From contig NZ_WJFC01000063.1 of assembly GCF_009725235.1 (NCBI RefSeq), forward strand, positions 1 through 63,375: DNA of 63,375 bases, written 5' to 3'. The notes beneath the pieces were generated by a model. The model was not told where the DNA came from and did no database searches. It saw only the letters and a list, made by a program, of their open reading frames with translations. Source of the DNA: Scytonema sp. UIC 10036. Lineage in GTDB: Bacteria > Cyanobacteriota > Cyanobacteriia > Cyanobacteriales > Nostocaceae. Below are positions 1-41,350 of the stretch, piece after piece. The number at the start of each line of letters is the position of its first letter. Positions within the stretch are counted from its first letter, which is position 1. A program made the position numbers and the translations under genes.

Positions 1-271
1 TTACAAATATCTCTGTAAATGCTGAGATTCATAATCACATCGATAACTTTGAGTTAACTAGGTTGCTGTTCTGTTTATAAAGAAAACTTCAAAAAATCCT
101 GACAAGATTTCAGCGTTTTCCTTCAGGCAAGAATGACTTGAGATCGGTCAATATAGTCTTGGCAAAATAGAGTTTTTTTATCAGTTGAGGGCTTCTACCC
201 GAAACTGTTTTTATTTCCGCATACTACCTACCTATCAACTGTCTGTCTTCACACTAAAATTTCCAATACTC
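1..271 (+). repeat. Upstream region duplicated at 9873-10169
   Basis: This leader of the first giant gene closely matches the leader of the second (9873-10169). Shared blocks include the TGAGTTAACTA segment, a TTGCTGTT...GTTTATAAAGAAA segment, TTTTCCTTCAGG and TCGGTCAATATA. The match shows that the promoter region was duplicated together with the gene. I cannot assign -35/-10 boxes with confidence. Confidence 0.7.
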
Positions 272-16100: not shown

Positions 16101-19100
16101 AGCATTGCCGTTCAGTCAGATGGCAAGATTGTGGTTACAGGTTCTGCTGATAATGGTAATGGTAGTAACTTCGACTTTACCTTAATACGCTACAATTCCA
16201 ACGGGAGTTTGGATAGCAGCTTTGGCAATGGAGGTAAGATTATTACTCCCATCAGTGGTGCCTCTGATTGGGTTTCTAGCATAGCCATTCAGCCAGATGG
16301 CAAAATTATCTTGGGAGGACAAGGCAACTCTGAATTTGCCCTAGTCCGCTACAACCCAGATGGTAGCTTGGACAATAGCTTTGGAAATAGCGGTAAGATA
16401 ATCACTGATATGGGTAGTTCCGTCAGTAAAATCGAAGGTATTTCCATTCAGTCTGATGGTAAGATTGTTGCAGCAGGGCATCTCTTCACAGGTAATAACA
16501 CCGAACTCACTGAATTTGCCCTAGTCCGCTACAACCCAGATGGTAGCCCGGACACAAGCTTTGGTAATGGTGGCAAAGTTATGACACCTATCAGTCATAC
16601 AACTGATATGGCATATGGTCTTGCACTTCAATCCGATGGCAATATAGTCGTGGTGGGGAATAGCAACAATAATTTTGCAGTTGTTCGCTACTTAGGAACA
16701 TCCAACAATATAGCTCCCTCTTTAATTGACACAACTGTTTCCCTTAACTCAATTAACGAAAACGCTAGCATACCTATTGGAGCGGTAGGTACCCCAGTTT
16801 CCTCTCTAGTCAGCTCGGGCAAAAACGTCATTGACAACAACAAAGGTGCTCTTGCGGGTATCGCTGTCACCTCTGTCAATCCCAACTTTGGCAACTGGTA
16901 TTACACTACAAACAATGGTGCGAACTGGAATCCTTTGGGTGAGGTTTCTAATGGTAGTGCTCGTCTCTTATCAGCAGATGTCAACACCCGTGTTTACTTT
17001 CAACCTAATGTTAATTTCAACGGTATCATCGACAGCGCGATCGCTTTTCGCGCTTGGGATAGAACTAGTGGTAGCAACGGTAACATAGCTGATACTACAA
17101 CTAACGGTGGCACAACTGCCTTTAGTCGTGCAACAGACACGGCTTCAATTAAAGTCAACCCCACGATCAATCCTGTTTATCATAAATTGGTTGATAGCCA
17201 CTTTAGCCAAGACTGGTCTAACTCCGATTTAATTAAAGTTGATGATGATTGGAGCGGTTTACCAAGTGTTAGGGGCTTCCGAGGCGATAATTTAGTCAAC
17301 AGTCTTGGTGTCGATCCACAATCAGTCAACGCTGACGGTTCTAGAACTGCTATTAACGTTATTGCCAATCAAGCTTATCCAAATACCAGTACGGGTAGTG
17401 GGATTGCTGAATTTGGCGGCGCGATCGCACTGCGAGGTTCCTCAGATGCAGATGCGCCTCACCTGGTGCTTTATCTTGATGCGACAGGGCGTCAGAGCAT
17501 TCAATTGAATTTTACACTCAAGGACATTGATACCTCAAGCCGCAACAGCATCCAACCTGTTGCCGTACAATATCGCATTGGTAACACAGGGACGTTTATC
17601 AATTTGCCAGCTGCTTTTGTTCCCGACGCTTCTAATGCTGCAACAACTGATGCTTCCTATGATATGCGCGAAGCACGCTTGAGAGTGGTTTTACCCAATG
17701 AAGTTCACAACCAAGCACAAGTACAGATCCGTTTTATAACCACTGACGCTCAGGGTGAAGATGAATGGATTGGCATAGATGATATTAAGGTAACAAGTCA
17801 AGCAATCAGTGCTAATCTTGCTCCCGCGATCGCAAATGATACTTATACTTTGGCAGCAAATACTTCCTTCGTCACGGGTGCTGCTATCACAGCGCTTACC
17901 TTGGATAGCGATCGCGGTAACTATGTCGGACAGAGCGATTACTATAGTTACACACCAGCCACAGGAACTTTCAGTGCTTCACGTGCTTACCCAACAAATA
18001 CTTCTAGCAACAATGCTGTCCGAATTAATTATTCTGACACAGACAGTAGTGGTACGTGGTGGCACTTGGAGTTTGCTGCAGCACTTAACGCACCACTGAC
18101 AGCAGGTACAACCTATACTGGTGCAACACGCTTTCCATTCCAAAGCAGCAACCAGCCCGGTTTAGATGTCGGTGGAGATGGGCGCGGCTACAACACCCTC
18201 ACGGGTCAATTTACCGTCAACCAAATTGTTTACAGTTCTGACAGTGAGATTATCAGCTTTGATGCCAATTTCTTAGAATATGGTGATGGTGACCCTGCTA
18301 ACGAAGCGTTCAAAGGTCGCATACAATACCGTGCTACAAACGATAATAGTCTTCCTGGTGTTTTAACAAATGACACCGACAGTGAGAAAAGCACACTGAG
18401 AGCCACTTTAGTTTCTGGTCCAAGCAAAGGTAGCTTAATTTTCAACCCTGACGGTTCCTTTCATTACACTCCCAATTCTGGGTTCAATGGTATTGATACC
18501 TTTACCTACCGCGCTAGCGATGGCATTGCTAGTTCTGATATTGCAACAGTCACCTTAAAAGTTGGCAATTTAGCACCGAGCTTAAAGGTGGGAACAAGCC
18601 CCGCCTCATACATAGAAAACATTTCTCCTATCAACATTGCTGATGATGCTACTGTCACAGACAACGGCTCTTCTGACTTTGATACAGGCAAACTGACTGT
18701 TAGTATCAGTAGTGGCGGAACCGTTGACGATCGCCTTGCCATCAAACACCAAGGTACAGGTACGGGTTTGATTGGTGTCTCTGGAAATACTGTTTTCTAT
18801 AGCACAACAGCAATTGGTACTTTTACAGGAGGAACTAGCAATATTCCTCTGGCGATCGCCTTTAACAGCAACGCAACTCTAGCAGCCGTTCAAGCATTGA
18901 TTCGCAACATTACCTTTGCCAATATCTCAGAGAATCCTTCCACGACTCCACGGACTGTCAGCTTTGTCCTGACTGACGGTGACGGCGCAACGAGTGCTAC
19001 TGTCAGCAAGACGGTTAACATCACCGCCATCAACGATGCTCCTGTTATAACTTTGTCAGGCAATTCCACTTACGTTGAAAATGCACCACCCGTATTCATA

Positions 19101-22100
19101 GCTCCCAATTCAAAGGTGGCAGATCCAGATTCACCCAACTTTAACATGGGCAAACTGATTGTCAGCATCAGTAGTGGCGGTACGACTAGCGATCGCCTTA
19201 GCATCAAACACCAAGGTACAGGAACGGGTTTAATTGGCATCTCTGGAAATACTGTTTTTTATAATGCACAGGAAATTGGTACTTTTAGTACAGGTAATAG
19301 TGTTGTTCCCTTGGAAGTTACCTTCAACGCCAACGCCTCCCAAGTAGCAGTACATGGATTGCTTAACAACATTACTTTTGCCAATGTCTCAGACAATCCC
19401 TCCACGACTCCACGGACTATCAGCTTTGTTCTAACGGATGATAAAGGTGCAACCAGTAACACTGTGACTACAACTGTTAACATCACTGCTGTCAATGATA
19501 CGCCTGTCATTACGCCCAATCAAAGTTTCTATGTCAAAGAAAACCTTTTTCAAGGAACAGCTATCGGCGCTGTGGTAGCCACTGACTTGGATGGAACCAC
19601 CTTCTCCAATTGGGCGATCGCAGGGGGTAACATTGACCGCGATAATGACAGCAAAGGTGCCTTTAGCATAAATAACAGTACTGGAGAGATTGTTATTAAT
19701 GACATTGACGACCTCAACCCCCAAACTAACCCCAGTATAAATTTACAAATTAACGTTAGCGATGGTACTAACACCAGTGCTAGTGAAACTGTGACTGTGA
19801 AGCTTGCTTTAAAACCCGGCGACTTCGATCCTAGCTTTGGTAATGGCGGGAAAGTCTTGACCGATTTGGGTAGCAACTCCGATGGTGCAAGAAGCGTAGC
19901 AATTCAACCAGATGGCAAGATTGTGGTACTTGGGTATACTGACAACAGTAGTACCTTTGGCTGGGAATTTGCCCTAACACGCTACAACGCTGACGGCAAT
20001 CTGGATACCAGTTTTGGGAACCTCGGTAAAGTCATAACTCCTATCAACCGCAGCAACACGAAAGAAAGTAGCGTTATTATTCAACCCGATGGCAAAATTG
20101 TGGTTGCAGGTGCTGCCTACAGTAACAATTCTTTGACGATCGATGACTTTGTTGTAGCACGTTACAATGCCAATGGCACGCCAGATACTAGTTTTGGTAG
20201 TGGCGGCAAAGTGATGACGCCCATCACGCGCACAGACTATAGTACTGATGAGGGCTACACTGTTGCGTTACAGCCAGATGGCAAAATTGTGGTTGCAGGA
20301 GCTACTTATAATGGCAGCAACTATGATATTGCTCTCACACGTTACAACATCAATGGCAGCTTAGATACTGGTTTTGGGAATGGTGGCAAAGTCATCACTG
20401 CTATTAGCAATGGCTCTGAAGTATCCCACAGTGTTGTGATTCAACCAGACGGGAGGATTCTTGTTGCTGGAGGTGTTGATAATGACACTAACTCCGACTT
20501 TGCCTTAGTTCGCTACAATCCTAATGGTAGCTTAGATACAAGTTTTGGCGTTGGTGGTAAGGTCATTACTGACTTGGGCAGCAGTAATGAGTTGGCTTAC
20601 GACGTTGCTATGCAGTCCAATGGCAAGATTGTTGTCGCAGGACAATCTAACTCTAAGTTTGCCCTGACACGTTACAACTCCAATGGGAGTTTGGACACTA
20701 GCTTTGGCAATGGGGGCAAAGTTATTACAGATATGGGTGGTACTGTCAGCAGTATCAAGAGTATGGCGATTCTGTCGGATGATAAGATTGTGGTGGGAGG
20801 TTCTTTCTTTAATGGTAGCGAACTATATACAGGTGACTTTGCCTTAGCTGCCTACAACCCTGATGGCAGCTTGGATACCAGTTTTGGCAATGGTGGTAAA
20901 GCGATCGCATCTCTCACCAGTACGAGTGATACAGCTTTTAGTCTTGCTGCTCAATCGGATCGCAAGATTGTTGTTGTAGGAACTTCTCGCAAGATTGATG
21001 CTACAGGAGCTACCAACAATGACTTTGCAGTCGCACGCTTCTTCGGACCTAGCAATAGCGGTGCAACACCGTTAAACGTGGTTTACCATAAATTAGCAAC
21101 AAGCGACCTCAGCCAAGATTGGTCGAATAGCACTCTCATCACCACTCATGATGATTGGAGTCGTATTCCTAGCATCAGAGGTTTCCAAGGTGATGGGTTG
21201 GTGAGTCACTCAGGTATCGATCCCCAATCTGTTCTCAGTCATGGCGCGGCGACAACTATCAATGTTCATGCAAATCAGACCAATCCAAGTACTTTTCTTG
21301 CTAGTGGTATTGCAGAATTTGCGTTAAGCAATCCCACCGTTGCTTTAAGGGCTTCATCAACAGCCAATGCTCCACACTTGGTACTTTATTTAGACGCCAC
21401 AAATCGTCAGAATATCCGACTCAATTACACGCTTCGGGATATCGATAGCTCAATTCGCAATGCGATCCAACCTGTGATTGTGCAATACCGTATTGGCGAT
21501 ACAGGTAACTTTACAAACTTGCCAACAACTTTTGTAGCGGATGCATCCAATTCTGCCGCCACTTTGTCTTCCTCTGATACTCGCGATCTCCGCATGAGTG
21601 TTGTATTGCCAACTGAAGCGAACAATCGATCGCAAGTACAAGTTCGCTTCATCACAACGGATGCTGTTGGTGATGATGAATGGATTGGCATTGATGATAT
21701 TAGGGTAACAAGTAAAGCTGTGAGTTCAAATGTGTTACCAGTCGTGATGAATGACACTTATATGGTGTCGGAGAATACCTCCTTGGTGACGGCGGCGGCG
21801 ACAACATCTCTGATTATAGATAGCGATCGCGGTAACTATATTGGTCAAAGCGATTACTTCAACTATGCTTTTGCTGATGGAACTTTTAACGCTGCACGCA
21901 ATTCTAACAATGGTGTCAGCATTAGCTTTAACGGTCTAAATTATGGTGAGTCTTGGTCTCTCGACTTTACCGCCCCAAATAAACAGATGCTATCACCTGG
22001 TACTTATACGGGTGCAATGCGTTATCCTTCCCAACCTACAATACCGAGTCTTAACGTCTCAGGTATGGGGCGAGCATACAGCCAATTAACCGGAGAGTTT

Positions 22101-29432: not shown

Positions 29433-29837
29433 ATGGAACTGGCATCACTGACAGCAGCAGCAATTGCTACTCTGGTCATCACCAAAGGCTTTGAAAGAAC
29501 AGGCGAAGTCATTGTAGACAAGTTAGTAGTGGAAAAAGGTGGTCAATTGATGCGACTGCTTTTGGACAAACATCCGCACATCGCAAGTGCTCTCCAGAGA
29601 GTACAAGATACACAGCAAGCCGTGGATGTTAGCAAAGATTTAGAAACTGTGGCAAGTATCAATCCAGAAGTAGCAAATATCATCAATGCTATTGCTCATG
29701 CTGTTCGCCAAACTAATCCTGAAAACACAAAAATAGATCGAAGAGTAATCCAAAAAGATAATAAGTATGCTGTCAATCAGGGCCAAGTTGATACTTCAAA
29801 TATAGGAGATACATACAATTATGGTAAAAATCATTAA
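29433..29837 (+). CDS. Small protein with C-terminal NKYAV...IGDTYNYG signature
   Basis: Unnamed family, 134 aa. The first about 100 residues are helical: an Ala-rich amphipathic start, then a GGQLMRLLLDK segment and an Asp/Glu/Ala-rich helix. The C-terminus (residues 109-131) reads DNKYAVNQGQVDTSNIGDTYNYG. The NKYAV-x2-G ... N-I-G-D-x3-Y-x-G pattern recurs in the next two genes (VQIGNKYAVSIG...INLGDNITYQG). From memory, such VQxGxYxVxxG...IGD linkers are frequent in cyanobacterial proteins that couple effector-associated domains to NTPases or proteases. This gene would then encode a stand-alone adaptor or regulator. It is followed by 218 bp without a gene. GAGAGG lies about 10 bp upstream of the ATG. 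Confidence 0.75.
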   Translation: MELASLTAAAIATLVITKGFERTGEVIVDKLVVEKGGQLMRLLLDKHPHIASALQRVQDTQQAVDVSKDLETVASINPEVANIINAIAHAVRQTNPENTKIDRRVIQKDNKYAVNQGQVDTSNIGDTYNYGKNH

Positions 29838-30055
29838 TCATTTCCTAGATGAATTTTGTATAGCATCTAGAAATTAGCAATCACACTTGGGTGTTTATCA
29901 GCTGTATGTAATACTATTTCACTGTTGTGCGGCTAAACATATTTTGTTAGGGACACAATCATCTTGTGTCCCTAAAACAACTGTGTTTATGGTATTAATA
30001 TCGTGATATATAAATAGGTCTGCATTCGTTAAATAGGCATTTCAATTAAACTAGC

Positions 30056-30730
30056 ATGACAAATCCTTATGACATAGAAGGTATTTTGGAACGTTTGACT
30101 ACAGGAAGTTTCACAGAAACGGACATTCAAATTTTACGAAATTCGATTGCTAGAAACACTAATCCAGATGTTGTTCAGATAGGCAATAAATATGCTGTCA
30201 GTATTGGTCATGCTACAGGTCCTATCAACCTTGGGGATAATATCACTTATCAAGGTGTAGATGCTGAAACAATTAGAGAAATATTGCGATCGCTACGAGA
30301 TATGCAGCGACAGCAACCTTTTGTATCTAATACAGAAGCATTACGCTACTTACAGCAACAATCCTTAGTTCGTAATCGACCCGGAGTTCCTTTTCAATGG
30401 CAAGTTTTAGTAAGTTGGTTAATTCTCAGCTTGCTTGGCTTAATTATCTTATTATTTACACAAACATCTAACTCATTAATCATTAAAAATTTAGCTGATT
30501 TTATATACTATTGGGTTATTTTATTTTTGGCTGCCACGATTTATGGTTTTTTAGGAATATTTTTGCAAGGTGTATTTCAATATCGTTGGCGATTTTCCGA
30601 AGTTCGCAACTATTGGATAGTTTGGTTCTTATACCCAATTATCGCTCCCTTTTTTATTGCTTTGTGGATGGTTTTTTATGGACTTAGATATGGAGATAGA
30701 ATATTTCCTAGATTTTTTAGATTTTGGTAG
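30056..30730 (+). CDS. Effector-associated-domain-like membrane protein (224 aa)
   Basis: Residues 5-36 form a short helical region (IEGILERLTTGSFTETDIQ...) resembling the helical effector-associated domains of bacterial conflict systems. This resemblance is from memory, not a search. Residues 39-67 hold the signature VVQIGNKYAVSIG...INLGDNITYQG, followed by a helix GVDAETIREILRSLRDMQ. The C-terminal half has three membrane segments (about 115-136, 147-172, 186-210) and ends in a basic/aromatic tail. The architecture suggests a soluble sensor/adaptor part joined to a membrane effector or anchor. The next gene, 32 bp downstream, encodes a paralog, so the two probably form an operon. Confidence 0.78.
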   Translation: MTNPYDIEGILERLTTGSFTETDIQILRNSIARNTNPDVVQIGNKYAVSIGHATGPINLGDNITYQGVDAETIREILRSLRDMQRQQPFVSNTEALRYLQQQSLVRNRPGVPFQWQVLVSWLILSLLGLIILLFTQTSNSLIIKNLADFIYYWVILFLAATIYGFLGIFLQGVFQYRWRFSEVRNYWIVWFLYPIIAPFFIALWMVFYGLRYGDRIFPRFFRFW

Positions 30731-30762
30731 TGAATTAACTCCATATGTAACAGAGGTAAAGG

Positions 30763-31605
30763 ATGATAAATTCCGATAATATCAAATCAATTTTTGAACG
30801 CCTTATTAAAGGTAGATTAACAAAAAAAGATGTTCATATTTTGAGAGATGCAATTGATAGTAACACGAATCAAGATGTTATCCAAATAGGTAATAAATAT
30901 GCCGTAAATATTGGAAATTCTACAGGCTCAATTAACCTTGGTGATAACATTACTTATCAGGGTGTAGATGCTGAAACAATTAGAGAAATATTGCGATCGC
31001 TACGAGACATACAGAAACAAAAACCTTTAGTTTCTAATGGAGAAATTTTAAGTATTTTACGACGTAAATATCCTTCTTTAGAGCTTGGTAGAGGGAGATT
31101 TTATTTACCAATTTTGGTTTTAGCTAGCTGGTTAATAATTAGCTTAATTATTTCAATTCTAATTTCTAAATATCAGCCTAACTCCACTGTAATTATTTTA
31201 AAAACATTTTTAGTTTTTTTGGGATATGGAATGCAGCTATATTATCCAATTATAGGATGTGTGTTAATGTTCAACTACCACATTAGATCGAAATTTGTAT
31301 TTTTATTAATATTTCCTGTCATTGTTTGGTTACTCTTAAACACTTATTGTACTTTAGTTGAATATATTCTGATTTCAGGACGTATATTCGCTACTGCAAA
31401 TTTTATCAATTTGGTGCTGATAGTGTTTATAGCTTATGCAGTTTTAGCCTATTTAGGAAATTTGTTAGCCGGAAGATTTCATATAAGTTTTACAGGTCTA
31501 ATGGATAGGTGGTTAATTTGGTCTTTTTCTCCATTCATAACTGTATTCCGCCTGCATTTTTATCTCTTCCTTCTTGTTGGTCACATATTTCGTTTTGGAG
31601 CATAA
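30763..31605 (+). CDS. Effector-associated-domain-like membrane protein, paralog (280 aa)
   Basis: Paralog of the preceding gene. The soluble part is closely similar (IxxIxERLxxGxxTxxDxxxLR, then QIGNKYAVNIG...INLGDNITYQG and an identical GVDAETIREILRSLRD). Forty-seven consecutive nucleotides around 30961-31007 equal those at 30251-30297. The membrane half differs: four or five hydrophobic segments (about 113-136, 142-171, 176-205, 212-236 and possibly 250-275), no similarity visible to the other tail. A conserved adaptor with swapped membrane modules is a hallmark of fast-evolving conflict or signalling proteins (inference). GAGGTAAAGG precedes the ATG. Confidence 0.78.
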   Translation: MINSDNIKSIFERLIKGRLTKKDVHILRDAIDSNTNQDVIQIGNKYAVNIGNSTGSINLGDNITYQGVDAETIREILRSLRDIQKQKPLVSNGEILSILRRKYPSLELGRGRFYLPILVLASWLIISLIISILISKYQPNSTVIILKTFLVFLGYGMQLYYPIIGCVLMFNYHIRSKFVFLLIFPVIVWLLLNTYCTLVEYILISGRIFATANFINLVLIVFIAYAVLAYLGNLLAGRFHISFTGLMDRWLIWSFSPFITVFRLHFYLFLLVGHIFRFGA

Positions 31606-31802: not shown

Positions 31803-32786
31803 GTGAGACAACAAATTGATAAAAATAACGTTCAACTAAGTGGAGATATGGAAGGCTCTTTTTATCCTTCTAGCCAAGCGGAGATAGTACGAAATGTAGT
31901 CTTACATACTCCTTTGTACCTCAACGGTGGATTATTTGCCCAGAACATAACCAATATTGGAGGTGGAACCGTTATCGGTCCGGTGCTGGCGACAGCAGAA
32001 ATTACCCTTTCTCATCCCCAGCCAGGAAGCCCACCGTTGAAGTTTCTTTCTGGGATGAATGCAACGCTATCAATTGCCATTACCGAATCTGGTAAAGCAA
32101 TTCAAGAAACTGTCGTCAGCCACACCAGTAAAGCCAGTGTTGTAGTGCGAGGTGATGTAGTGAGCGATAGTGTCAAATTGGACAATGCACTAATTTTTGG
32201 TAATGTACGAGCGCGAGAAGTGTCTTTGGTGAACTCCATCATTGTTGGTTCCATTTTTGCAGAAGAAACCCTACGACTGGAAAACAGTAACTTTGTGGCA
32301 CTCTCTGGGGGACGAGTGATTTTGAAAGGGCGCAATGGTTGCTGGTTACCTTATGCCACTTCGTTAGAACCAATTCAATTTGCAGACCTGATGCTGCCCA
32401 ATGGTGAAACAATACCAGCCGAACTGCGTTACCTTGCCCTATGCCGCTCAACTCAGTTGGGATGTGCTTTTCAGGAAGGGGGGATTGCCTGTGAACCTTT
32501 TGTTACTGGTCAGTGTGGTTATCATCAGGTGTGTTTGGGACCAGCCGATATCCATCCCCACCATACGGAAGATGGCCGAATTTTGTATGCACTTAACCTG
32601 GCTCAGCGTGCCCTTAACCTAGCACCCATTGAACGAGAAATTAGACAAGTGGAATTGTTTTTGAAAGAACTCCTGATGTATGAACACCTAGATAAATCCT
32701 CACAGCAACAAGCGCGAGAAGCATGGCCAGAAAAACTCCGACCGGAAGAAAAAGAGTTACTGGAAATGACCGTTGAGATGCTGTGA
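31803..32786 (+). CDS. Bactofilin-like beta-helix protein with C-terminal Cys cluster (327 aa)
   Basis: Not a family I can name. Residues about 105-180 have the short alternating repeats of bactofilin/polymer-forming proteins (VVRGDVVSDSVKLDNALIFG, NVRAREVSLVNSIIVGSI), suggesting a right-handed beta-helix. A region with five cysteines follows (C214, C221, C230, C238, C244, also with histidines), possibly a metal or Fe-S site. The last 80 residues are a charged helix. The start is a GTG at 31803 with GGAGAG about 8 bp upstream; an ATG at 31848 is possible but has a cramped ribosome site. First gene of a six-gene same-strand cluster; the next gene encodes a radical-SAM-type protein, which makes an Fe-S or maturation link attractive. 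Confidence 0.75.
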   Translation: MRQQIDKNNVQLSGDMEGSFYPSSQAEIVRNVVLHTPLYLNGGLFAQNITNIGGGTVIGPVLATAEITLSHPQPGSPPLKFLSGMNATLSIAITESGKAIQETVVSHTSKASVVVRGDVVSDSVKLDNALIFGNVRAREVSLVNSIIVGSIFAEETLRLENSNFVALSGGRVILKGRNGCWLPYATSLEPIQFADLMLPNGETIPAELRYLALCRSTQLGCAFQEGGIACEPFVTGQCGYHQVCLGPADIHPHHTEDGRILYALNLAQRALNLAPIEREIRQVELFLKELLMYEHLDKSSQQQAREAWPEKLRPEEKELLEMTVEML

Positions 32787-32879
32787 CTTGGAGAGCTTTG
32801 ATACTAAACTTCATCATGACTGACTTTCACAATCTAGCACCTAAAATCCAAAATCGGCATAACACTCAATGAGTTAGCG

Positions 32880-33500
32880 ATGAGTACATCATTTCAAATT
32901 CAAGTAGCAACCTATCTCCCTGAAAGCTACAGCAACGGTCCTGGCTGTCGGGCTGTACTGTGGGTGCAGGGATGTCCAAAGCGTTGTTCAGGCTGTTGGA
33001 ACCCTGATTTTCTCTCGTTTAAAGGCGGAACAGTGTGGACTGTGGCGCAGGCTTTAGAGAAGTTAACCCAGTCCGATGCTATCGAAGGGATAACTCTTTT
33101 AGGGGGAGAACCGTTTTCCCAAGCCGAACCTTTATCTAATTTATGTGCCGAAATCCGCCAACATGGATTAAGCGTGATGGCATACAGCGGTTGGACTTTA
33201 ACAGAGTTAACCCGCATGGGTTCTCCCCAAACAGATTTGCTTGCTTGCTGCGATTTGCTAGTAGACGGGGAATTTGTGGCGGAGTCAGAGGCTTCGTTGC
33301 TGTGGCGAGGTTCATACAACCAGCAGATTCACTTTTTGACTGAACGATATGCACAGTGGCGATCGCAAGTTAACAATTATCATCGGGACTTTGAAATCCT
33401 GATTCAGGATGAACAACTTATTCTTACTGGAGATCCACCCGCAGCCGTCTTGCAAATGTTACAAGGACTCTTGCCACAGGGAGAATGGCAAATGAGATGA
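32880..33500 (+). CDS. Small radical-SAM / 4Fe-4S single-cluster activase-like protein
   Basis: It resembles NrdG/PflA-type activating enzymes, which use a 4Fe-4S cluster and S-adenosylmethionine to generate a radical on a partner protein. The cluster motif CxxxCxxC is present (C32, C36, C39 in QGCPKRCSGC), followed by the GGEP motif (TLLGGEPFSQ) that binds the SAM amino group. Length (206 aa) is in the small-activase range. No glycyl-radical enzyme is encoded in the window, so it is not obviously an anaerobic ribonucleotide reductase activase. Its partner may instead be a neighbouring product. It is 93 bp after the beta-helix gene and 115 bp before the AAA+ gene, all on one strand. Confidence 0.85.
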   Translation: MSTSFQIQVATYLPESYSNGPGCRAVLWVQGCPKRCSGCWNPDFLSFKGGTVWTVAQALEKLTQSDAIEGITLLGGEPFSQAEPLSNLCAEIRQHGLSVMAYSGWTLTELTRMGSPQTDLLACCDLLVDGEFVAESEASLLWRGSYNQQIHFLTERYAQWRSQVNNYHRDFEILIQDEQLILTGDPPAAVLQMLQGLLPQGEWQMR

Positions 33501-33615
33501 AGTGTCAGTCCGAAAGTCAGATTCAGCTTTTTCTTTGCCTTCTCTCAACATAGCTGCTTGTCCTCCTAATTTTCTACTTCCTCGTGCCTAACTTAATTCA
33601 ATTAAATATGCTGCT

Positions 33616-35187
33616 ATGAAGTGTCATTTTCCTAAAGAATTATCAGAAATTATCCGCGCCCGATTTCCACTAATTTACCTGCAAACATTTGAAGAAGAAC
33701 GAGCATTGGTGATGTTGAAAGACCTTTGTGCTGACAGTGGGAAAAATGGTCTAAATCGCCCTTTATATGTTTGGTCGCACACCCAAGGATTAAAAAAATA
33801 TCCTGATGGGCAAATTGACTCCTCATTGCTATCACCTTATCAGCTACTTGACCATATTGAAAAATCTGCCAATAGTTCCCTCTACGTCCTGTTAGATTTC
33901 CACATCTATCTAGATGACCAACACCGTACCCCAGACAACGACAGGATTGTGCGACGACTACGGGAAGTAGGTATGTCGCTGCGAAATGCTAATTTAGCAC
34001 GTACACTTGTCATTACCTCACCTATTGTTAACCTACCACAGTCCTTACAAAAGGACGTGATGGTGATGGATTTTCCGCCACCTACACAGATGGAAATTCG
34101 CACAGCTTTGGATAGGTTGATTCTCAAGCAAAAAGGTGCTGGTGGAGTCCAAGTATTTTTAACAGAAGAAGACAAACAACAGCTATGTAAAGCTGCTTTA
34201 GGTTTAACACAGCAAGAAGCTGAAGGAACCTTTGCAAGGGCAATGGCAAGTAATGGTGTTTTGGAAGCTTCTGATGTAGATTTTATCCTGGCACAGAAAC
34301 AGCAAATTCTCAAGAAAAGTGGTGCTTTAGAATACGTCGGTTCGGACTTCAAGCTGGAAGATGTGGGAGGGTTAGAGAACTTGAAAAAATGGCTGGAGAA
34401 GCGCAACCGGACTTGGATGGATGAGGCAAAACGCTACAACTTACCAGCACTGAAAGGCGTGATGGTGACGGGTGTGCCTGGTTGCGGTAAAAGCTTGATT
34501 GCTAAAGCAATTTCTAGCTTGTGGAAGTTACCACTACTGCGCTTTGATATTAGTAGCGTTTTTGGTGTTTATGTAGGACAAAGTGAGGCCAATATGCGGC
34601 GAGCGCTACAAACGGCGGAAGCCATAGCGCCGTGCATTCTTTGGGTGGATGAGATTGAAAAAGGGTTAGGCGGTGCTTCTGGTGGTGAAGGCGACAGTGG
34701 TACAACCAGGCGTGTGTTTGGTAATTTTCTGACTTGGATGCAAGAAAAACAAGCTCTGGTATTTGTCTTTGCTACTGCTAACCAAATAGACCGCCTACCA
34801 CCGGAATTGTTGCGTAAAGGTCGATTTGACGAGATTTTCTTTGTCGATTTGCCCAGTAAAGAAGAGCGCAAACAAATCTTTAAGGTGCATCTGCGGCGAC
34901 GTTTAACCTCTCCTGAAGCCAGGGGGGACTTTCAGGAAACTGAACAGATTTTGGACGAACTGGCAAACCTGTCTGACAAATTTATTGGTGCAGAAATTGA
35001 AGATGCCATCACCAATGCACTGTACGAAGCTTTTTTTGACTCCCGTGCTTTTCGCCTTGATGACCTAAAACGCATCATTATAAACACACCCCGATTTGCT
35101 GATATGCAAGCAGATTACTTGCAATCTATTCGGACATGGGCAAAACAGCGAGCAGTTCCTGCTAGTCAAACCTTTGAAAATATCTAA
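33616..35187 (+). CDS. AAA+ ATPase of the Ycf46 type
   Basis: AAA+ ATPase close to the cyanobacterial/plastid Ycf46 family. The N-terminal part (residues 1-230) has the family's [20 protein letters not shown] start, which belongs to a degenerate first ATPase-like region. The active AAA module has Walker A GVPGCGKS (286-293), Walker B ILWVDE (341-346), a sensor/Arg-finger region [20 protein letters not shown] (about 390-409), and a C-terminal lid. Length 523 aa is normal for Ycf46. From memory, canonical ycf46 genes are often near DUF1257 (Ycf35) and DUF2997 genes; a DUF2997-like protein ends this cluster. This copy sits instead with a radical-SAM protein and coiled-coil proteins. It is 17 bp before the next gene. 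Confidence 0.88.
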
Positions 35188-35204
35188 ACATATAAATACA
35201 ACTT

Positions 35205-37133
35205 ATGAAAATACTTCCTTCTAGTATCATTCAGAACGATAAACCTGTTAACGATGGCATGGATTTGGCTCTGGCGTTTGCCCAGGCAAATCAACAATCA
35301 ATGGAAAGCTTTATAGCTAAACAAAAAGCAGATACGCAGCAGGTTGAATCCGACTTGCAAGCACTACGGGCGAAAAAAGCATATCTATCAGGAGCGATCG
35401 TGGCAGGTATTTCTGCCATTCTTTTACCCTTCTCCTTTCAAAACTCCATTTTCTTGCCGTTGGGATTGAGTGGTTTAGCAGGTGGTGGTGTTTGGGCATA
35501 TACCGCCCGTAAAAAACAGCAGCAAGAAATTTTGGAGTTAGAAGCCGAACAACAGGATATTCCCCGACGACAAATTCCCCAAGTCGTGTCACATTTAGGG
35601 AAGTTGCACTATGTTGTTGAGGTCATGCCGTTCGAGGATGGGAAATTGGTAGTTGATGCTACTGGTACTCGACTCAAGCAACCACTGGTGTATCCAGAAA
35701 TACCCAATAGCATCAATCGGTTGCAAGCTTTGAGCGACAAGCTGGCGGAAATTCCAGAAGAACTACCCATTTTGTTACCTGGAACTGGGGCAGCGGATCT
35801 TCAAGAGAGATCGCGACTGACAGGGATTGAGGCAGATATGGGCGAAGTGCTATCCATCACCAATCAAATCTTCACCGATACAGTTGATATACAAACAGAG
35901 CTACCCGCTTTTACTGCCAATAATGATGTGGTACACAGCTTGCGGATGCTTGCCCGCTACTTGCAAGATGGTCAGCCGGAACTGCATTTGGCACAAGATG
36001 ACCCCACTATTTCCCTAGCCGTGCAAAGTTTAACACAGACAAACGCAGAGGCAGCACAAGCGCAGGCAGTGGGAGCAACCAACGTGGAGTCAATGATGAA
36101 TCACGCTGTAGAGCGAATGGACTCCTGCGTTACTCAAGCTAAAGCAGCACGCGATCGCTCTCTAATGAATATTTTGAGTGACGGACTCGATAGCATTCGT
36201 GGCATTTACGACTATCCCCTGACACGGTTTTACTGCCCCAAATGCCATCAGGTGGAACAATACCGCGCCTCTCAGTTGCCTGTTGCCGTAGAACATCTCA
36301 CACAAGTACCACCCGATAGACTTGATACACTTCATCGCGGCGACGACCTGCGGCGACTGCGCGGCATTATAGACAGTATTCGGCGCTACCTCAAGCAGGC
36401 AAAACGGCAGGGGGAAGACCTCAATGCCGAACATTTTACGATTCTGCAAGACAGGCTAAAAACTTATGAAGAACTGATGCGGGGAATGGCTGTAGAAATT
36501 CCTGAATATGACCCTAAGATTGATTTACACAAGCGCAACGCGGTGTTGAAATACAACACAATCCGCCAAGAGTGGGTTTGTCAACTGTGCAGCGAAAGCT
36601 TTAATGATGAACAAGCACAGTGGGCAAGGATGCTCAAAGTCAAAGATGAATTAATTCTGCCAATTTGGGATGCCCTCTGGTTGGAAAAACACGATGAGCG
36701 CAACCGCATTATCCGCGAGAAGGAAGCAGAACTGCGTGCCAATGTAGAGCAAGAAGTAACCCTACTGCGAGACGAAGCAAAGCTTTTTACTGAAGAATTT
36801 CGCCCGGTGCGCGACCAACTGGAGAAGATGGGTAGTAGTTCCAGAGTTGCCCAGCAGCAAATTGAAATGATGCTCAACTTCTACATTGCACGTGGCATTC
36901 TCTCTGAGGAAACTGCTGATGCAATGCGCCAGTACATTAGTAGGGGACAGGGACTAACTACCAACGAAATTATTAATATCACACGCCAGCTAGAAAACCA
37001 ACTGTCTGAAGAAGCAGAGACAGCACAGATTCGCCGCAGCCAATTAGGCGATTATGCAGATGAAGTGCGTAATGCCACTAAATATTTCTTTACTCCTAAT
37101 TCCATCGAACAAAAATTCATTGACAAATTATAA
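35205..37133 (+). CDS. Membrane-anchored coiled-coil protein with split zinc ribbon (642 aa)
   Basis: No family name known to me. A short soluble N-terminus and coil (about 25-58) precede two adjacent membrane segments (about 60-78 and 82-100). A mixed region follows, with YVVEVMPFEDGKLVVDATG near 150. A CPKC knuckle (C344, C347) and a CQLC knuckle (C459, C462) are separated by about 110 residues of helix, which looks like a zinc ribbon split by a coiled-coil insert. The rest (about 480-640) is long charged coiled coil. It follows the AAA+ gene by 17 bp and precedes the next coiled-coil gene by 12 bp, so these three are almost certainly co-transcribed. It may be the membrane platform or substrate of the AAA+ protein (inference). 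Confidence 0.75.
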   Translation: MKILPSSIIQNDKPVNDGMDLALAFAQANQQSMESFIAKQKADTQQVESDLQALRAKKAYLSGAIVAGISAILLPFSFQNSIFLPLGLSGLAGGGVWAYTARKKQQQEILELEAEQQDIPRRQIPQVVSHLGKLHYVVEVMPFEDGKLVVDATGTRLKQPLVYPEIPNSINRLQALSDKLAEIPEELPILLPGTGAADLQERSRLTGIEADMGEVLSITNQIFTDTVDIQTELPAFTANNDVVHSLRMLARYLQDGQPELHLAQDDPTISLAVQSLTQTNAEAAQAQAVGATNVESMMNHAVERMDSCVTQAKAARDRSLMNILSDGLDSIRGIYDYPLTRFYCPKCHQVEQYRASQLPVAVEHLTQVPPDRLDTLHRGDDLRRLRGIIDSIRRYLKQAKRQGEDLNAEHFTILQDRLKTYEELMRGMAVEIPEYDPKIDLHKRNAVLKYNTIRQEWVCQLCSESFNDEQAQWARMLKVKDELILPIWDALWLEKHDERNRIIREKEAELRANVEQEVTLLRDEAKLFTEEFRPVRDQLEKMGSSSRVAQQQIEMMLNFYIARGILSEETADAMRQYISRGQGLTTNEIINITRQLENQLSEEAETAQIRRSQLGDYADEVRNATKYFFTPNSIEQKFIDKL

Positions 37134-37145
37134 GGAGAATCAAAG

Positions 37146-38165
37146 ATGTCAGAAGGAACGATCGTAGTTGACACAAGTGCAGTTGCTCATGAAGTGGCAA
37201 GACTCTCCAGAGATATTGACCGCTTGGGGGATCAGTTTCATAACGATAGCCGCGTTCTCCAACGAGAAATGGCGGAAGGGTTTAACGCGGCTGTAGCCCA
37301 AATGCAGGATAGTTTAGCTGTAACTGTAGAACAGATGCAGGCAGTACAGCTAGCAGTTAACCTAGTACAGCAAGAAGTCAATCGAGGGATTGAAGCTGAG
37401 GCGCAAACTAAGCTGTTTGAACAGTACGCGGCTATTGCTGAAGAAAACGATACCATTAGTACCGCATCCCAACGACTCCACGAGCGATATTCTAAGTCGG
37501 TGCAAGATACACAGCGAGTGGTGCGTCGGTACGACAATCTGAATCAAACCGTGAGACAAAGTTATCAGACAGATATTCGTCGATTAGGACAATATATTTT
37601 TGAAATCCTGGAAACCCATTTCCACAAAACTGTTGAGAGCCGTATTTCTAAACAGCACACCGGATTTCTTACTTCAGTACTTGATACCATTGAGCAAATT
37701 CGACAGACACGCGAGCAACAATTAGCCAAATTACTGGAAACGGCATCTACCCAGTTGACTGAGTTTCTAAAAAAGCGCCAGCAGTTTGCTGAATCCGTTG
37801 AATCGATTAAGACACAAAACCTGCCAGTCACTGGTAAAGTTGCTCTACCAATGGTTATCCTAAAACGTCAGGATGCTTCTAAAGCTACGATCTTGGCAGG
37901 GCATGAAGTTGTTAAGTCTTCAGGTGAGATGGTGAAGTACCAGCTACAAGAGAACGATATGTTCCGCACCTTGCGCTCTGACTTTACCAACGCTGACAAA
38001 CACATACAATGGCGAGCCATGACTCCAGAAGAAGTCAGCATGATGGAAAGCAATTTAAAGCAGCTGCTCGAGCAGAATTATTTCAGCCAAGAATACTACA
38101 AATACTTAATTCAAGCATTGCGAAACCAACCACCTATGGTTTCCGCACAAGTCAGACAACGTTAG
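37146..38165 (+). CDS. Coiled-coil protein (339 aa), unknown function
   Basis: No recognised domain. Residues 10-120 and 135-215 are heptad-rich coils (for example EVARLSRDIDRLGDQFHND and QTREQQLAKLLETASTQL). A short beta-like segment (NLPVTGKVALPMVILKRQD) follows near 225-243, then a mixed C-terminal domain ending in helices. No signal peptide or membrane segment. AAGGAG lies 8 bp upstream of the ATG, a strong ribosome site, and only 12 bp separate it from the membrane coiled-coil gene. Tight coupling suggests that the two proteins interact. Confidence 0.75.
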   Translation: MSEGTIVVDTSAVAHEVARLSRDIDRLGDQFHNDSRVLQREMAEGFNAAVAQMQDSLAVTVEQMQAVQLAVNLVQQEVNRGIEAEAQTKLFEQYAAIAEENDTISTASQRLHERYSKSVQDTQRVVRRYDNLNQTVRQSYQTDIRRLGQYIFEILETHFHKTVESRISKQHTGFLTSVLDTIEQIRQTREQQLAKLLETASTQLTEFLKKRQQFAESVESIKTQNLPVTGKVALPMVILKRQDASKATILAGHEVVKSSGEMVKYQLQENDMFRTLRSDFTNADKHIQWRAMTPEEVSMMESNLKQLLEQNYFSQEYYKYLIQALRNQPPMVSAQVRQR

Positions 38166-38306
38166 CTTTTGGAGCAGTTGTTGGGGAGAAGGGGAAAAGG
38201 ATCAAGATTATCAAAAAAACTTTTACTTCCTGATTTTTTCCCTGACCTTCAACTAAAAACTCTTTGGCAAAATTTCTCATCAAGAGCTTTTTTTGGAGTC
38301 AATAAT

Positions 38307-38789
38307 ATGTCTCACGTTTCTACTTACAGCATTGCCCATCTCCGTCCCATGATGCGCGATCGCTTAGCAGCACAGATGCAAGCCAATGCGTTACAGATGC
38401 AAGCCAATGCAGTTCACTTTCAGGCACAGCTGCAAGCGAACGCCCAAGAATGGGCAGCAGCCCGTCAACGGGTTGAAGAGATTGTCCTGTCTGAGTTACA
38501 CCGCAACTTTATGGAATTGGCTCAACGACAAGAAGATGCCGCAGGCAACCTGCGGCTGCTGCTGACAGTCAATTCCGTTGCTGCTCCTGGAAAAACAGGA
38601 GATGTGGAAATTTTAATTAAAGCAGACAATACCCTCAGTGTTGATGTCAGTAATGCTCCCGGTCAAGCGTGTAAAGAATTAACACAACCACTAGAAATGG
38701 CTCTAGGTACACCTATTTCCGTACATTACAAGCCCGAATATCACGATGGGAAGGTGCGTCTGATAGACCAACAGCAGAATTGGGGGTAA
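38307..38789 (+). CDS. DUF2997-like protein with Gln/Ala coiled coil (160 aa)
   Basis: The open frame extends upstream to 38169, but the ATG at 38307 with TTGGAG upstream gives a sensible start (MSHVSTYSIAHL). Residues 20-60 contain QMQANA-type repeats forming a coil. The C-terminal part (VEILIKADNTLSVDVSNAPG...CKELTQPLEMALG) resembles DUF2997, in which a short beta strand pair is followed by a helix with Cys. The MSH start is reminiscent of DUF1257 (Ycf35) proteins, which often accompany DUF2997 and Ycf46 genes; that is a weak similarity judged by eye. It lies 141 bp after the previous gene and closes the cluster. Confidence 0.65.
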   Translation: MSHVSTYSIAHLRPMMRDRLAAQMQANALQMQANAVHFQAQLQANAQEWAAARQRVEEIVLSELHRNFMELAQRQEDAAGNLRLLLTVNSVAAPGKTGDVEILIKADNTLSVDVSNAPGQACKELTQPLEMALGTPISVHYKPEYHDGKVRLIDQQQNWG

Positions 38790-38831: not shown

Positions 38832-38962
38832 CTTAGGGATTTCCAAGAAATAAATTATCCATCTTGTGGGACGGACGTTCCCGCCCGTCCTAAGACTGGT
38901 GGCGGGCTGTGAGCACCGCACCACAAGAAATTTTAGGAGATTTTTTATTTGGAAGTCCTTAG
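38832..38962. mobile_element. MITE-like element abutting the TOPRIM gene end
   Basis: The ends CTTAGGGATTTCCAAGAAAT and ...ATTTGGAAGTCCTTAG are inverted repeats. The interior has nested complementary segments (CTTGTGGG...CCACAAG and GGACGG...CCGTCC). It is about 131 bp and non-coding. The TAA stop of the minus-strand TOPRIM gene lies in its right end. Confidence 0.65.
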
Positions 38963-39810
38963 GTGGGTGAGGTAGTTGAAAAATCTGTGTTAATAATCAG
39001 TTCACGTAACATCCGCCACTCTTCCAGCCAAATCCAAACTTCTTGTTTCCTTTCCATACCTTTGATGATTCGTTCTAAAAACACATCTCTTGGACTAATT
39101 TGAGAATTACTAGATTCAAATCCAAATACCCTAAGCTTTTCAGTCATAATACATAGCAAATCTTTGCCTGCAAAGAAAGTTAGAAAGTTTTCAAATCTAT
39201 TGCCCCCAGGTTGAAAAAGTGGAACTAATCGTCTAAATTTATCTAAAACATTTTCTGGTGTAACTATACGATCGCCTCTTAATTGTTGAACAATTGTCTG
39301 TATGTTCTGCTCGCAAGCTTCTCTACCCAGTCTTCGGGGAAAACAATGTGATGTATTACTAACTTTCTCTCCCCAAAAATTCTTGAAGCCGTAACATGAC
39401 AAAGCAGTTCTAGCTGCTGTATAGTTTGAAATAGATTTTGCTGCTTCCATAAGAGCAGATTGATACTCATTAATTGGTGGTGCTTTACGTTCCAAAGCTC
39501 GTTGAACCACTTCTGGGTCGAGCAAATAGTTCTCAATTTCTTTTCTTTCCCAAGACCAACCTACTTGTATATTATTGCTTGTAAAGATTGGACAAGGGCT
39601 TCGTTTAAGAGTCATATTTTGACAGTCAAAATCACGATCTAAAAGACCAGCCAAATTTGGATTAATTGCACGATCTCCTAGAATACTTGATACGAAAAGC
39701 TGTTTTCCACCAATCGGTCGAATCTCACAATTTTTTGGTAATATTTCCCGAATTATCTGTATATCAATACTTTTATAATTTCCCTCACAATACAGAACAT
39801 TTACAGGCAC
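38959..39810 (-). CDS. TOPRIM / DUF4435-like nuclease, PARIS AriB-like
   Basis: Putative effector nuclease. It has the TOPRIM acidic residues: E9 in NVLYCEGNYK, and D58/D60 in GLLDRDFD, followed by WERKEIENYLLDPE (about 87-100), a motif I associate with DUF4435/OLD-type TOPRIM proteins. Length 283 aa is close to that of AriB, the DUF4435 effector of the PARIS anti-phage system. It overlaps the upstream ATPase gene by 10 bp (39801-39810), which indicates translational coupling, as in ATPase-TOPRIM defence pairs. The rest of the protein is helical with no clear extra domain. The stop codon lies inside a MITE-like repeat. The family call is by eye; a generic OLD-like nuclease is the alternative. 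Confidence 0.7.
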   Translation of the reverse strand: MPVNVLYCEGNYKSIDIQIIREILPKNCEIRPIGGKQLFVSSILGDRAINPNLAGLLDRDFDCQNMTLKRSPCPIFTSNNIQVGWSWERKEIENYLLDPEVVQRALERKAPPINEYQSALMEAAKSISNYTAARTALSCYGFKNFWGEKVSNTSHCFPRRLGREACEQNIQTIVQQLRGDRIVTPENVLDKFRRLVPLFQPGGNRFENFLTFFAGKDLLCIMTEKLRVFGFESSNSQISPRDVFLERIIKGMERKQEVWIWLEEWRMLRELIINTDFSTTSPT

Positions 39811-40910
39811 AATGCCCCTCCTAACAGACGATAAGTGTCGCTTTCACTCACTACATCACTAACTGCTTTAGAGTGAGTGGTGAAGATAAATTGACAGGTG
39901 GGAGCAATTTTGTTAAGCTGACTAACTAGAAATTGTGCTGCTGATGGATGTAAATTGAATTCGATTTCATCAATAAGTACAACCGAATAAGCAATTTGCT
40001 GCCTAACAAATTCATAGAGGAAAAGAAAAACAGTTTGCTCTCCTGCTGACATTTCTACAATGTCGTATCTTCGATGTCCATCATCTATGAGAAAATATGT
40101 AGTTTCTTCTGTAGGCGAATCAGGACTAGGGAGATTTTCTAGTCCCCAAAAGGAACGATTGGGAAAGATTTTTTGGTAAAGAGTTTCTAATTGACCCAAA
40201 TAATCTACTGAATAATTTCTGCCAGATTCTTGTCGGCGTCTCCAATCAACTAAAAACTGACGCAAACGACCTACACCAAATTCAAAAGAAATACCAGTAC
40301 TACGCTCTTTTATACTATCTCCTACAGATTCCTGATTAGAATTTGAACCAAGATTGCGAAATTGATCGAACCAGAAAACTCCTGGCAATTGAGAAAACAA
40401 AGAACGGACAGATTGATCCCCTTTATTAATAAACCACTGAGCATAGTATCGACCCCGAAACTGCTCTGATTCAGCCTTAGAGTTTCCAATTTTACAAAAA
40501 TCTCCATCAAGAATGACTCGAACAAGAGGGCTGTTACCTGGTTCAACAAATTCTTTTGAGTCTGACTTGCGTTCAAGCGGCTGAGCTTCGTACCATTTCC
40601 TTGCTATTTCACGGGTAGCAAGCAATTCTTTTTCTTCAAAAGAAACCTCTAACTCAATCCGTGGTGTCCCCCATCGCCAGTATCGTCCCGGCAAAAACCC
40701 CGTCCAATCAAAATCAGCAATATTCCGAATACGTCCAGTTGCAAGAGCTAAAGGTAGGGCAACTGCTTGTAAGAGAGTTGTTTTACCACTACCATTGTCG
40801 CCTAAAATCAGGAAGCGATCGCTTACCTCTTCTAAGGTTTTGTTTTTAAATGAGACTTCTAGCCTATCAAACTGCTTGAAGTTTTGAATACAGATGGACT
40901 CAACTTTCAC
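39801..40910 (-). CDS. ABC-type AAA ATPase, PARIS AriA-like
   Basis: SMC/ABC-like ATPase of the AAA_15/AAA_21 type. Walker A is GDNGSGKT (37-44), an ABC signature-like EMSAGEQ lies near 287, Walker B SVVLIDEIEFNLHP is near 306-319, and the switch histidine is in FIFTTHSKAVSD near 345. The start is a GTG at 40910 with GGGAGAA about 8 bp upstream; no better ATG exists. Length 369 aa fits the ATPase half of two-gene ATPase + TOPRIM systems. In PARIS (known system), the ATPase sequesters the TOPRIM effector until a phage protein triggers release. That this pair acts likewise is inferred. Its 5' end and leader are duplicated at 41124-41431. Confidence 0.78.
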   Translation of the reverse strand: MKVESICIQNFKQFDRLEVSFKNKTLEEVSDRFLILGDNGSGKTTLLQAVALPLALATGRIRNIADFDWTGFLPGRYWRWGTPRIELEVSFEEKELLATREIARKWYEAQPLERKSDSKEFVEPGNSPLVRVILDGDFCKIGNSKAESEQFRGRYYAQWFINKGDQSVRSLFSQLPGVFWFDQFRNLGSNSNQESVGDSIKERSTGISFEFGVGRLRQFLVDWRRRQESGRNYSVDYLGQLETLYQKIFPNRSFWGLENLPSPDSPTEETTYFLIDDGHRRYDIVEMSAGEQTVFLFLYEFVRQQIAYSVVLIDEIEFNLHPSAAQFLVSQLNKIAPTCQFIFTTHSKAVSDVVSESDTYRLLGGALCL

Positions 40911-41116: not shown

Positions 41117-41350
41117 TTAGGTGAGTCCCAGCAAAAATCCCGTCCAATCAAAATCAGCTATATTCCGACTACGTCCAGTTGCAAGAGCTAGAGGTAGGGC
41201 AACTGCTTGTAAGAGAGTTGTTTTACCACTACCATTGTCGCCTAAAATCAGGAAGCGATCGCTTACCTCTTCTAAGGTTTTGTTTTTAAATGAGACTTTT
41301 AGCCTATCAAATTGCTTGAAGTTTTGAATACAGATGGGATCTACTTTCAC
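41117..41350 (-). pseudogene. Truncated duplicate of the ATPase gene 5' end
   Basis: This 77-codon frame, also starting with GTG, matches the first about 75 residues of the ATPase at 40910 nearly exactly (ICIQNFKQFDRL, GDNGSGKTTLLQ, ADFDWTGFL). It then ends in GLT and a stop where similarity stops. Only the Walker A half survives, so it cannot be a working ATPase. Confidence 0.85.

Follow-up and report, generated by a model that had tools for sequence, protein, structure and literature searches.

The AAA+ ATPase Ycf46, the DUF1257 protein Ycf35 and DUF2997 proteins make up what we take to be one set of cyanobacteria and red-algal plastids, and ycf35 and ycf46 are still-unknown reading frames of plastids and cyanobacteria. 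According to the accessible part of one report, loss of Ycf46 (slr0374) lowers the activity of the carbonic anhydrase EcaB (PMC7496141, crediting Jiang 2015), and the slr0374 operon responds to iron and other stresses (PMC7496141). The available portions of two others describe a DUF2997-ycf35-fed7 cluster (PMC4284462) and a presence of pbsA, ycf34, ycf35 and ycf46 that tracks habitat in 127 red-algal plastids (PMC5940233). AAA+ and radical S-adenosylmethionine (radical-SAM) proteins also meet in ternary conflict systems, for which the accessible part of Kaur 2020 (PMC7159879) describes an FtsH-type double AAA+ protein with a radical-SAM effector. Here we analyse a stretch of 63,375 nucleotides from Scytonema sp. 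UIC 10036 (contig NZ_WJFC01000063.1), called the window throughout, which carries a cluster of six genes, g1 to g6, around an AAA+ ATPase.

We show that the six genes form a unit which is real and rare, and that its radical-SAM gene, its AAA+ gene and its DUF2997 domain recur together in other bacteria. The cluster is notable less as a lone oddity than as what may be an elaborated form of this AAA+/radical-SAM/DUF2997 module. No description of such a module was found in the literature searched, which left most subscription journals outside, and one may exist elsewhere; the same largely open-access literature yielded nothing on a combination of bactofilin, radical SAM and AAA+, or on a 4Fe-4S single cluster domain with defence and an AAA family ATPase.

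The six-gene unit and its recurrence

A check of the open reading frames (ORFs) confirmed six co-oriented genes with the following features (lengths in amino acids, aa; TM, transmembrane).

31803..32786, +: g1, beta-helix protein (predicted), 327 aa, GTG start, C-terminal three-helix part
32880..33500, +: g2, radical-SAM activase-like protein, 206 aa; PF13353, NrdG model below cut-off
32973..32996, +: CxxxCxxC of g2 (C32, C36, C39), from sequence
33616..35187, +: g3, AAA+ ATPase, presumed Ycf46 type, 523 aa; PF00004
34471..34494, +: Walker A (GVPGCGKS) of g3, from sequence and alignment
35205..37133, +: g4, N-terminal TM-like segment, long helix (predicted), split CxxC/CxxC ribbon, 642 aa
36234..36245, +: first CxxC of g4 (C344, C347), invariant in 21/21
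36579..36590, +: second CxxC of g4 (C459, C462), invariant in 21/21
37146..38165, +: g5, probably coiled-coil, 339 aa; sub-threshold domain matches
38307..38789, +: g6, ends in DUF2997, 160 aa; start set by Limnofasciculus homology
38604..38744, +: DUF2997 domain of g6 with GxxC (GQAC), PF11211

The 206-aa reading of g6 from TTG 38169 is too long; its start was placed at ATG 38307 because the homologue in Limnofasciculus baicalensis aligns from residue 1 of that 160-aa reading. With this correction the gaps from g1-g2 to g5-g6 are 93, 115, 17, 12 and 141 bp, so that the 12-17 bp gaps which a sequence-only reading of this DNA had placed around the three central genes hold for the two beside g4 and not for the others; in Limnofasciculus the gaps flanking g4 are 85 and 20 bp. 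A promoter and terminator scan of the cluster stayed close to the shuffle mean (26 vs 21.7, 13 vs 8.9). Between the window and Limnofasciculus, the ratio of nonsynonymous to synonymous substitution rates (dN/dS) is 0.055 for g1, 0.164 for g2, 0.070 for g3, 0.110 for g4, 0.102 for g5 and 0.109 for g6, so that all six evolve under purifying selection and are no chance ORFs.

Limnofasciculus carries g1 to g6 in the same order, preceded by homologues of u1 to u3, the three small genes upstream of g1. The sequence-only reading had staked its cluster on a survey of neighbourhoods, naming confinement of the six genes to one genome as what would overturn it; Limnofasciculus holds all six, and nine further g1/g4 relatives lie on contigs of equal length, so this objection falls. 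The recurrence that it had looked for in Nostocales took another form, since the only named relative with all six genes belongs to Coleofasciculaceae. Protein listings gave 32 relatives of g4 and 8 of g5, each including itself, and 28 of g1. When the longest contig of each was compared, exactly equal lengths (up to 107,062) were found for 10 g1/g4, 5 g5/g4 and 4 g5/g1 pairs; Limnofasciculus accounts for one pair per set and the window for one g5/g4 pair, leaving 9, 3 and 3. We infer that equal-length contigs of g1, g4 and g5 relatives are the same contigs, a comparison restricted to these three genes. This wider linkage comes from the listings, with one longest contig per protein, while the scan of genome contigs used a single g4 sequence and returned one locus. 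Full synteny in Limnofasciculus together with the equal-length contigs bears out a conserved multi-gene unit. By source name, one g4 relative belongs to Candidatus Deferrimicrobium and one g1 relative to Candidatus Aminicenantes; single genes of the cluster thus reach beyond cyanobacteria, and the cases seen for the whole unit are cyanobacterial. A viral source of g4 or g1 was rejected, no relative being confirmed in viral contigs.

Protein families of the cluster

The product of g3 is an AAA+ ATPase, as proposed (PF00004, E 2.6e-29), of full length for its type and with Walker A, Walker B and arginine-finger regions, as in the Ycf46 module. We presume it to be of Ycf46 type, a name taken over from the sequence-only reading. 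Comparison of the N-terminal with the C-terminal part of the family by hhalign gave a probability of 29 (E 6e-4), and one AAA+ domain is clear. Of 292 genomes sampled from the phylum, 186 have relatives of g3 at E<=1e-70. In phage records, g3 alone of the cluster has relatives, 132 records in number.

By its match to PF13353 (E 3.1e-35), the product of g2 is a radical-SAM protein of the Fer4_12 family; this match and the motif bear out the small activase with CxxxCxxC (C32, C36, C39) of the sequence-only reading. CxxxCxxC and a GGE-like motif are intact in all 24 other g2-type proteins checked. Like the NrdG and pyruvate formate-lyase (PFL) activating enzymes it belongs to the Fer4_12 family and has the CxxxCxxC motif. 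It differs from them in scoring below the equivalog cut-offs (NrdG model: E 9.3e-32, 110.1 bits against a curated cut-off of 126.1; further below the cut-off for each other curated activase model listed) and in having no glycyl-radical enzyme as a partner among the six genes of the cluster. This last trait had been presented as new here and is in fact common to a whole module family. In the 20 small-genome loci described below, ORFs >400 aa were searched by pattern for the C-terminal motif of glycyl-radical enzymes, and no instance turned up. We rejected g2 as the NrdG of its host, given its score below the cut-off and the Limnofasciculus genome, in which NrdD was not found (0/1; found in 6/14 control genomes).

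Concerning g6, its C-terminal part is a DUF2997 domain (PF11211, E 3.9e-9, 36.7 bits, cut-off 24.1), as in the Ycf46 module. The sequence-only reading had named DUF1257 and DUF2997 proteins as frequent partners of Ycf46-like ATPases: DUF2997 lies within g6 itself, and DUF1257 was not recognised in g1 to g6. The G and C of the GxxC motif are the only columns conserved at 100% in all 59 hits besides the window (59 loci, 58 distinct). In the Limnofasciculus genome DUF2997 was matched once at E<=0.01, within g6; no free-standing copy turned up in this assembly, which may be incomplete. Elsewhere, one DUF2997 match lies about 0.2 kb from a g3 match (genome G077), and among the DUF2997 matches outside the 30 best of the phylum one lies beside a g2 match (G017, contig C14).

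The AlphaFold model of g1 (predicted local distance difference test, pLDDT, 84.4) has strands within residues 9-264 and helices at 267-326, and supports the proposed beta-helix protein. The further description as bactofilin-like did not hold in profile searches. Although g1 resembles bactofilins (PF04519) in its predicted beta-helix, it differs by its C-terminal helical part, and it was rejected as a bactofilin because no profile match was significant: 3 of 17 sequences had one, with a best E of 0.047, and g1 itself had none. The cluster of five cysteines was likewise rejected as a hallmark of g1: among 17 aligned sequences, window included, all five are present in 3 and four in 8, and the patch is missing in 9.

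For g4, the sequence-only reading described a membrane protein with a zinc ribbon split by a coiled coil. Two CxxC pairs, C344/C347 and C459/C462, are invariant in 21/21 aligned sequences (window included) and one TM-like stretch lies at residue 60; the long helix comes from a model of low confidence, and a bound metal would be consistent with the cysteine pairs. A fold search with the g4 model gave a best E of 0.76, and profiles compared with solved structures a best E of 0.3 for g4 and no match for g1. One relative of g4 (P0009) has a C-terminal ribosomal L7/L12-like domain (PF00542). The product of g5 is probably a coiled-coil protein, as its domain matches, all sub-threshold, are to coiled-coil proteins, e.g. 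BAR (E 9e-5).

The AAA+/radical-SAM/DUF2997 module in other bacteria

Relatives of g2 (E<=1e-15) occur in 102 of the 292 sampled genomes. After Limnofasciculus, the 38 best g3 matches lie in genomes of 1.7-2.3 Mb, which we suspect to be non-photosynthetic relatives. In 32 of these 38, a g2-type match is found upstream, on the strand of g3 and no more than 3 kb away, and in 30 of the 32 the two are 82-167 bp apart, match to match. Among the other 111 g3 matches listed, g2 was upstream in none and downstream in one. This comparison covers the g3 matches listed, Limnofasciculus left out (further g3 matches exist), and 107 of 115 g2 matches, those left out being Limnofasciculus and the seven of least significance (E 5.7e-18 or higher).

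Twenty small-genome loci, hand-picked from the 38 best, were fetched. They contain g3 in 20/20, DUF2997 in 19/20 by profile (17/20 by blast clustering), g2 in 18/20 and all three in 18/20; 18 of the 20 had been preselected with a nearby g2, which biases the count for g2; the selection did not extend to DUF2997 or to the families c0 and c4. The c0 family (~180 aa) is present in 19 loci and the c4 family (~275 aa) in 14. An alignment of c0 with two actinobacterial 141-aa proteins matched DUF1257 in a profile comparison (E 3e-9, probability 96), and the one c4 member scanned has a helix-hairpin-helix (HhH) domain (E 4.4e-14) behind a hydrophobic N-terminus.

Parts of the module are also found on plasmids, where the loci were chosen by rank and diversity and therefore give no rates. 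Plasmids of Paenarthrobacter YJN-5 and Rhodococcus have all of them, rearranged in the order AAA+, 141-aa protein, DUF2997, HhH and 4Fe-4S protein, and those of Arthrobacter ZXY-2 and Paenarthrobacter AT5 are laid out in parallel. The HhH gene of YJN-5 and Rhodococcus is known from its annotation or a match, that of ZXY-2 and AT5 from its position; DUF2997 was found by profile in each actinobacterial plasmid. Paenibacillus has AAA+, DUF1257, DUF2997 and 4Fe-4S genes, and on several cyanobacterial plasmids an AAA+ gene is accompanied by DUF1257 and DUF2997, no g2 being annotated. Around the g3 match of 12 plasmid loci, DUF2997 is present in 9 and a g2-type gene in 6; four loci (L003, L004, L007, L010) have DUF1257 and DUF2997 annotated without g2, and two (L008, L009) have neither DUF2997 nor g2. 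A Treponema locus has g2 and g3 and no DUF2997 in a 15-kb stretch, one being annotated about 20 kb away.

The g2-type gene also occurs apart from g3: it lies beside a different ATPase in L013, L014 and L016-L018, and L015 and L019 contain a g2-type gene and no match of g3 type. The former five are copies of a recurrent proteobacterial plasmid cassette of an AAA domain protein, a PIN protein, a further protein, an AAA family ATPase and a 4Fe-4S protein. A scan of one copy (L014) matched the ATPase to the PADLOC candidate PDC-M37B (E 9e-29) and to DolB (E 1.5e-19), and the 4Fe-4S protein to pVip (E 6e-6); the PIN protein and the further protein gave no match.

The window thus shares with the module of small genomes and actinobacterial plasmids a DUF2997 in the unit and, as in the small genomes, a g2 directly upstream of g3. 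It differs in that HhH and DUF1257-like proteins are not recognised and g1, g4 and g5 are present instead. With the Ycf46/Ycf35/DUF2997 set it shares a DUF2997 domain with GxxC and an AAA+ protein related along its length (about 41-46% identity to the lower-scoring g3 matches). Here, however, DUF2997 forms the last part of a larger protein, and radical-SAM, TM/long-helix and beta-helix genes are added. Since DUF1257, a defining part of that set, has no recognisable counterpart in the window, we call the cluster a variant and not a member.

Favoured reading, rival explanations and flanking genes

The chances are about even, in our judgement, that a widespread but uncharacterised module of Ycf46 type appears here in an elaborated variant, in which AAA+ remodelling is joined to a radical or Fe-S step and to a membrane scaffold. 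As part of this reading, the core of the module would be a radical-SAM activase-like enzyme, the AAA+ ATPase and DUF2997, accompanied elsewhere by a DUF1257/Ycf35-like and an HhH protein. The product of g3 may assemble into a ring that uses ATP to remodel a substrate, which the DUF2997 part of g6 would present, and g2 might carry out a radical or Fe-S-dependent modification or activation of that substrate or of a partner. The g4 protein with its TM anchor, long helix and split metal ribbon, g5 and the beta-helix of g1 would form a membrane-side scaffold, replacing the usual HhH and DUF1257 partners. The assembly first suggested, AAA+ and Fe-S steps acting on a membrane-anchored coiled-coil complex, is therefore plausible: its AAA+/radical-SAM/DUF2997 link has been strengthened, and the complex itself we infer. 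A bolder version is speculative and in our view quite unlikely. Here DUF2997 would itself take part in the chemistry, its GxxC being a site of radical, thiol or Fe-S type on which a radical-SAM enzyme or, in oxygenic cyanobacteria, the ferredoxin Fed7 acts; DUF1257 would present DUF2997 to the Ycf46 AAA+ ring; and plastid ycf35 and ycf46 would be what is left of a machine for redox maturation driven by an AAA+ protein, of which the window would show a membrane-scaffolded form. If their relatives are locked to radical-SAM and DUF2997 proteins in other bacteria, ycf35 and ycf46 gain a concrete biochemical direction.

Several results weigh against the favoured reading. The gene g4 is very rare: samples of 386 genomes from the phylum and 388 from the order each yielded a single genome with it, Limnofasciculus in both cases, and it had no plasmid match. 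Profiles of g1, g4 and g5 had no match in the 20 small-genome loci or in the plasmid loci tested, so that window-type clusters are the sole tie of these three to the wider module; the HhH protein c4 was rejected as a counterpart of g4 by homology, being unrelated to g1, g4 and g5. No DUF1257 was matched by Pfam in g1 to g6, and hhalign of the g6 N-terminus against DUF1257 gave a probability of 0.1, by which a DUF1257-DUF2997 fusion was rejected despite an MSH start like that of DUF1257 proteins. Pfam assigned the c0 member L024 to no family. For g4, the model is of poor quality (helix 468-562, pLDDT 62). In the AAA+ tree the backbone lacks resolution and the window g3 sits on a long branch, with long branches meeting. 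Finally, at the 30 best-scoring DUF2997 loci of the phylum (L044-L073), DUF1257 lies alongside and GxxC is kept in all, and g2 or g3 was found within about 1.5 kb in 0/30. The motif is thus no mark of radical-SAM substrates, and its cysteine, to judge by this conservation, appears to serve something more general than a nearby radical-SAM enzyme.

The main rival is a defence (conflict) system, with the AAA+ protein as threshold switch, the radical-SAM protein as effector or effector-maturase and upstream EAD10 membrane proteins as recruited effectors. It draws on two of the genes u1 to u3 (29433-31605, +), which all have syntenic homologues in Limnofasciculus; the two are as follows.

30056..30730, +: u2, EAD10 and TM protein, PF19954 E 1.3e-18; membership in the unit unproven
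30763..31605, +: u3, EAD10 and TM protein, PF19954 E 3e-20; membership in the unit unproven

Both have TM-like segments and are 68% (u2) and 57% (u3) identical to their syntenic homologues, besides which the Limnofasciculus genome gave no EAD10 match. Yet they evolve faster than the six (dN/dS 0.25 and 0.39 vs 0.06-0.16), have a lower GC content (33% vs 45%) and show gaps to g1 of 197 and 345 bp. The right-hand neighbours of the cluster resemble PtuA/AriA ATPases and, weakly, AriB; the Limnofasciculus contig ends about 1 kb past g6, short of any AriAB-like neighbours. Relatives of g3 occur on 1270 plasmid records, one near AbiL-like genes. The FtsH-type ternary systems, as far as described in the accessible part of PMC7159879, offer a precedent in placing an AAA+ and a radical-SAM gene together, but the cluster differs from them in having one clear AAA+ domain and no MoxR or vWA match (ten products scanned). 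Within the six products, MoxR, vWA, STAND and EAD gave no match above cut-off. PADLOC called no system; it matched g3 to IetA, TRIP13 and mad8 ATPases, g2 to pVip (E 0.004) and g5 to coiled-coil entries. We regard defence as possible and on balance unlikely.

A stress or metabolic unit akin to canonical Ycf46 (inorganic carbon, iron), with the Fe-S proteins as electron supply, is improbable to our mind. The carbon, iron, gene-cluster and habitat findings in the accessible parts of PMC7496141, PMC4284462 and PMC5940233 speak for it, but Limnofasciculus has, besides the cluster g3, a second g3-type copy in the canonical clade (G001:C159), so the cluster copy is not simply the housekeeping one. 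We consider it very improbable that g2 lies in this cluster incidentally and works as an ordinary activase on a glycyl-radical enzyme whose gene is located elsewhere. NrdG and PFL-activase models are indeed the closest matches of g2; against this stand its scores under every curated cut-off listed, its recurrence upstream of g3 in 32 of the 38 best matches, and the Limnofasciculus genome, where NrdD has no match and the one glycyl-radical protein found is adjoined by an activase-like protein of its own (247 aa, bearing CPLRCLYC). The variant of a Ycf46-type module remains the reading that we favour.

Around the cluster, u1 to u3 share a VQIGNKYAVxIG-like stretch, which we take to recall amyloid signalling motifs. 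To the right lie, at 38959-40910 (-), a pair made up of a weakly AriB-like protein (DUF4435 below cut-off) and a PtuA/AriA-type ATPase, and at 41117-41350 (-) an ORF resembling the start of that ATPase. To the left, 185-9142 and 10170-24362 (+) encode giant proteins of 2985 and 4730 aa with DUF5122, cadherin and RTX repeats.

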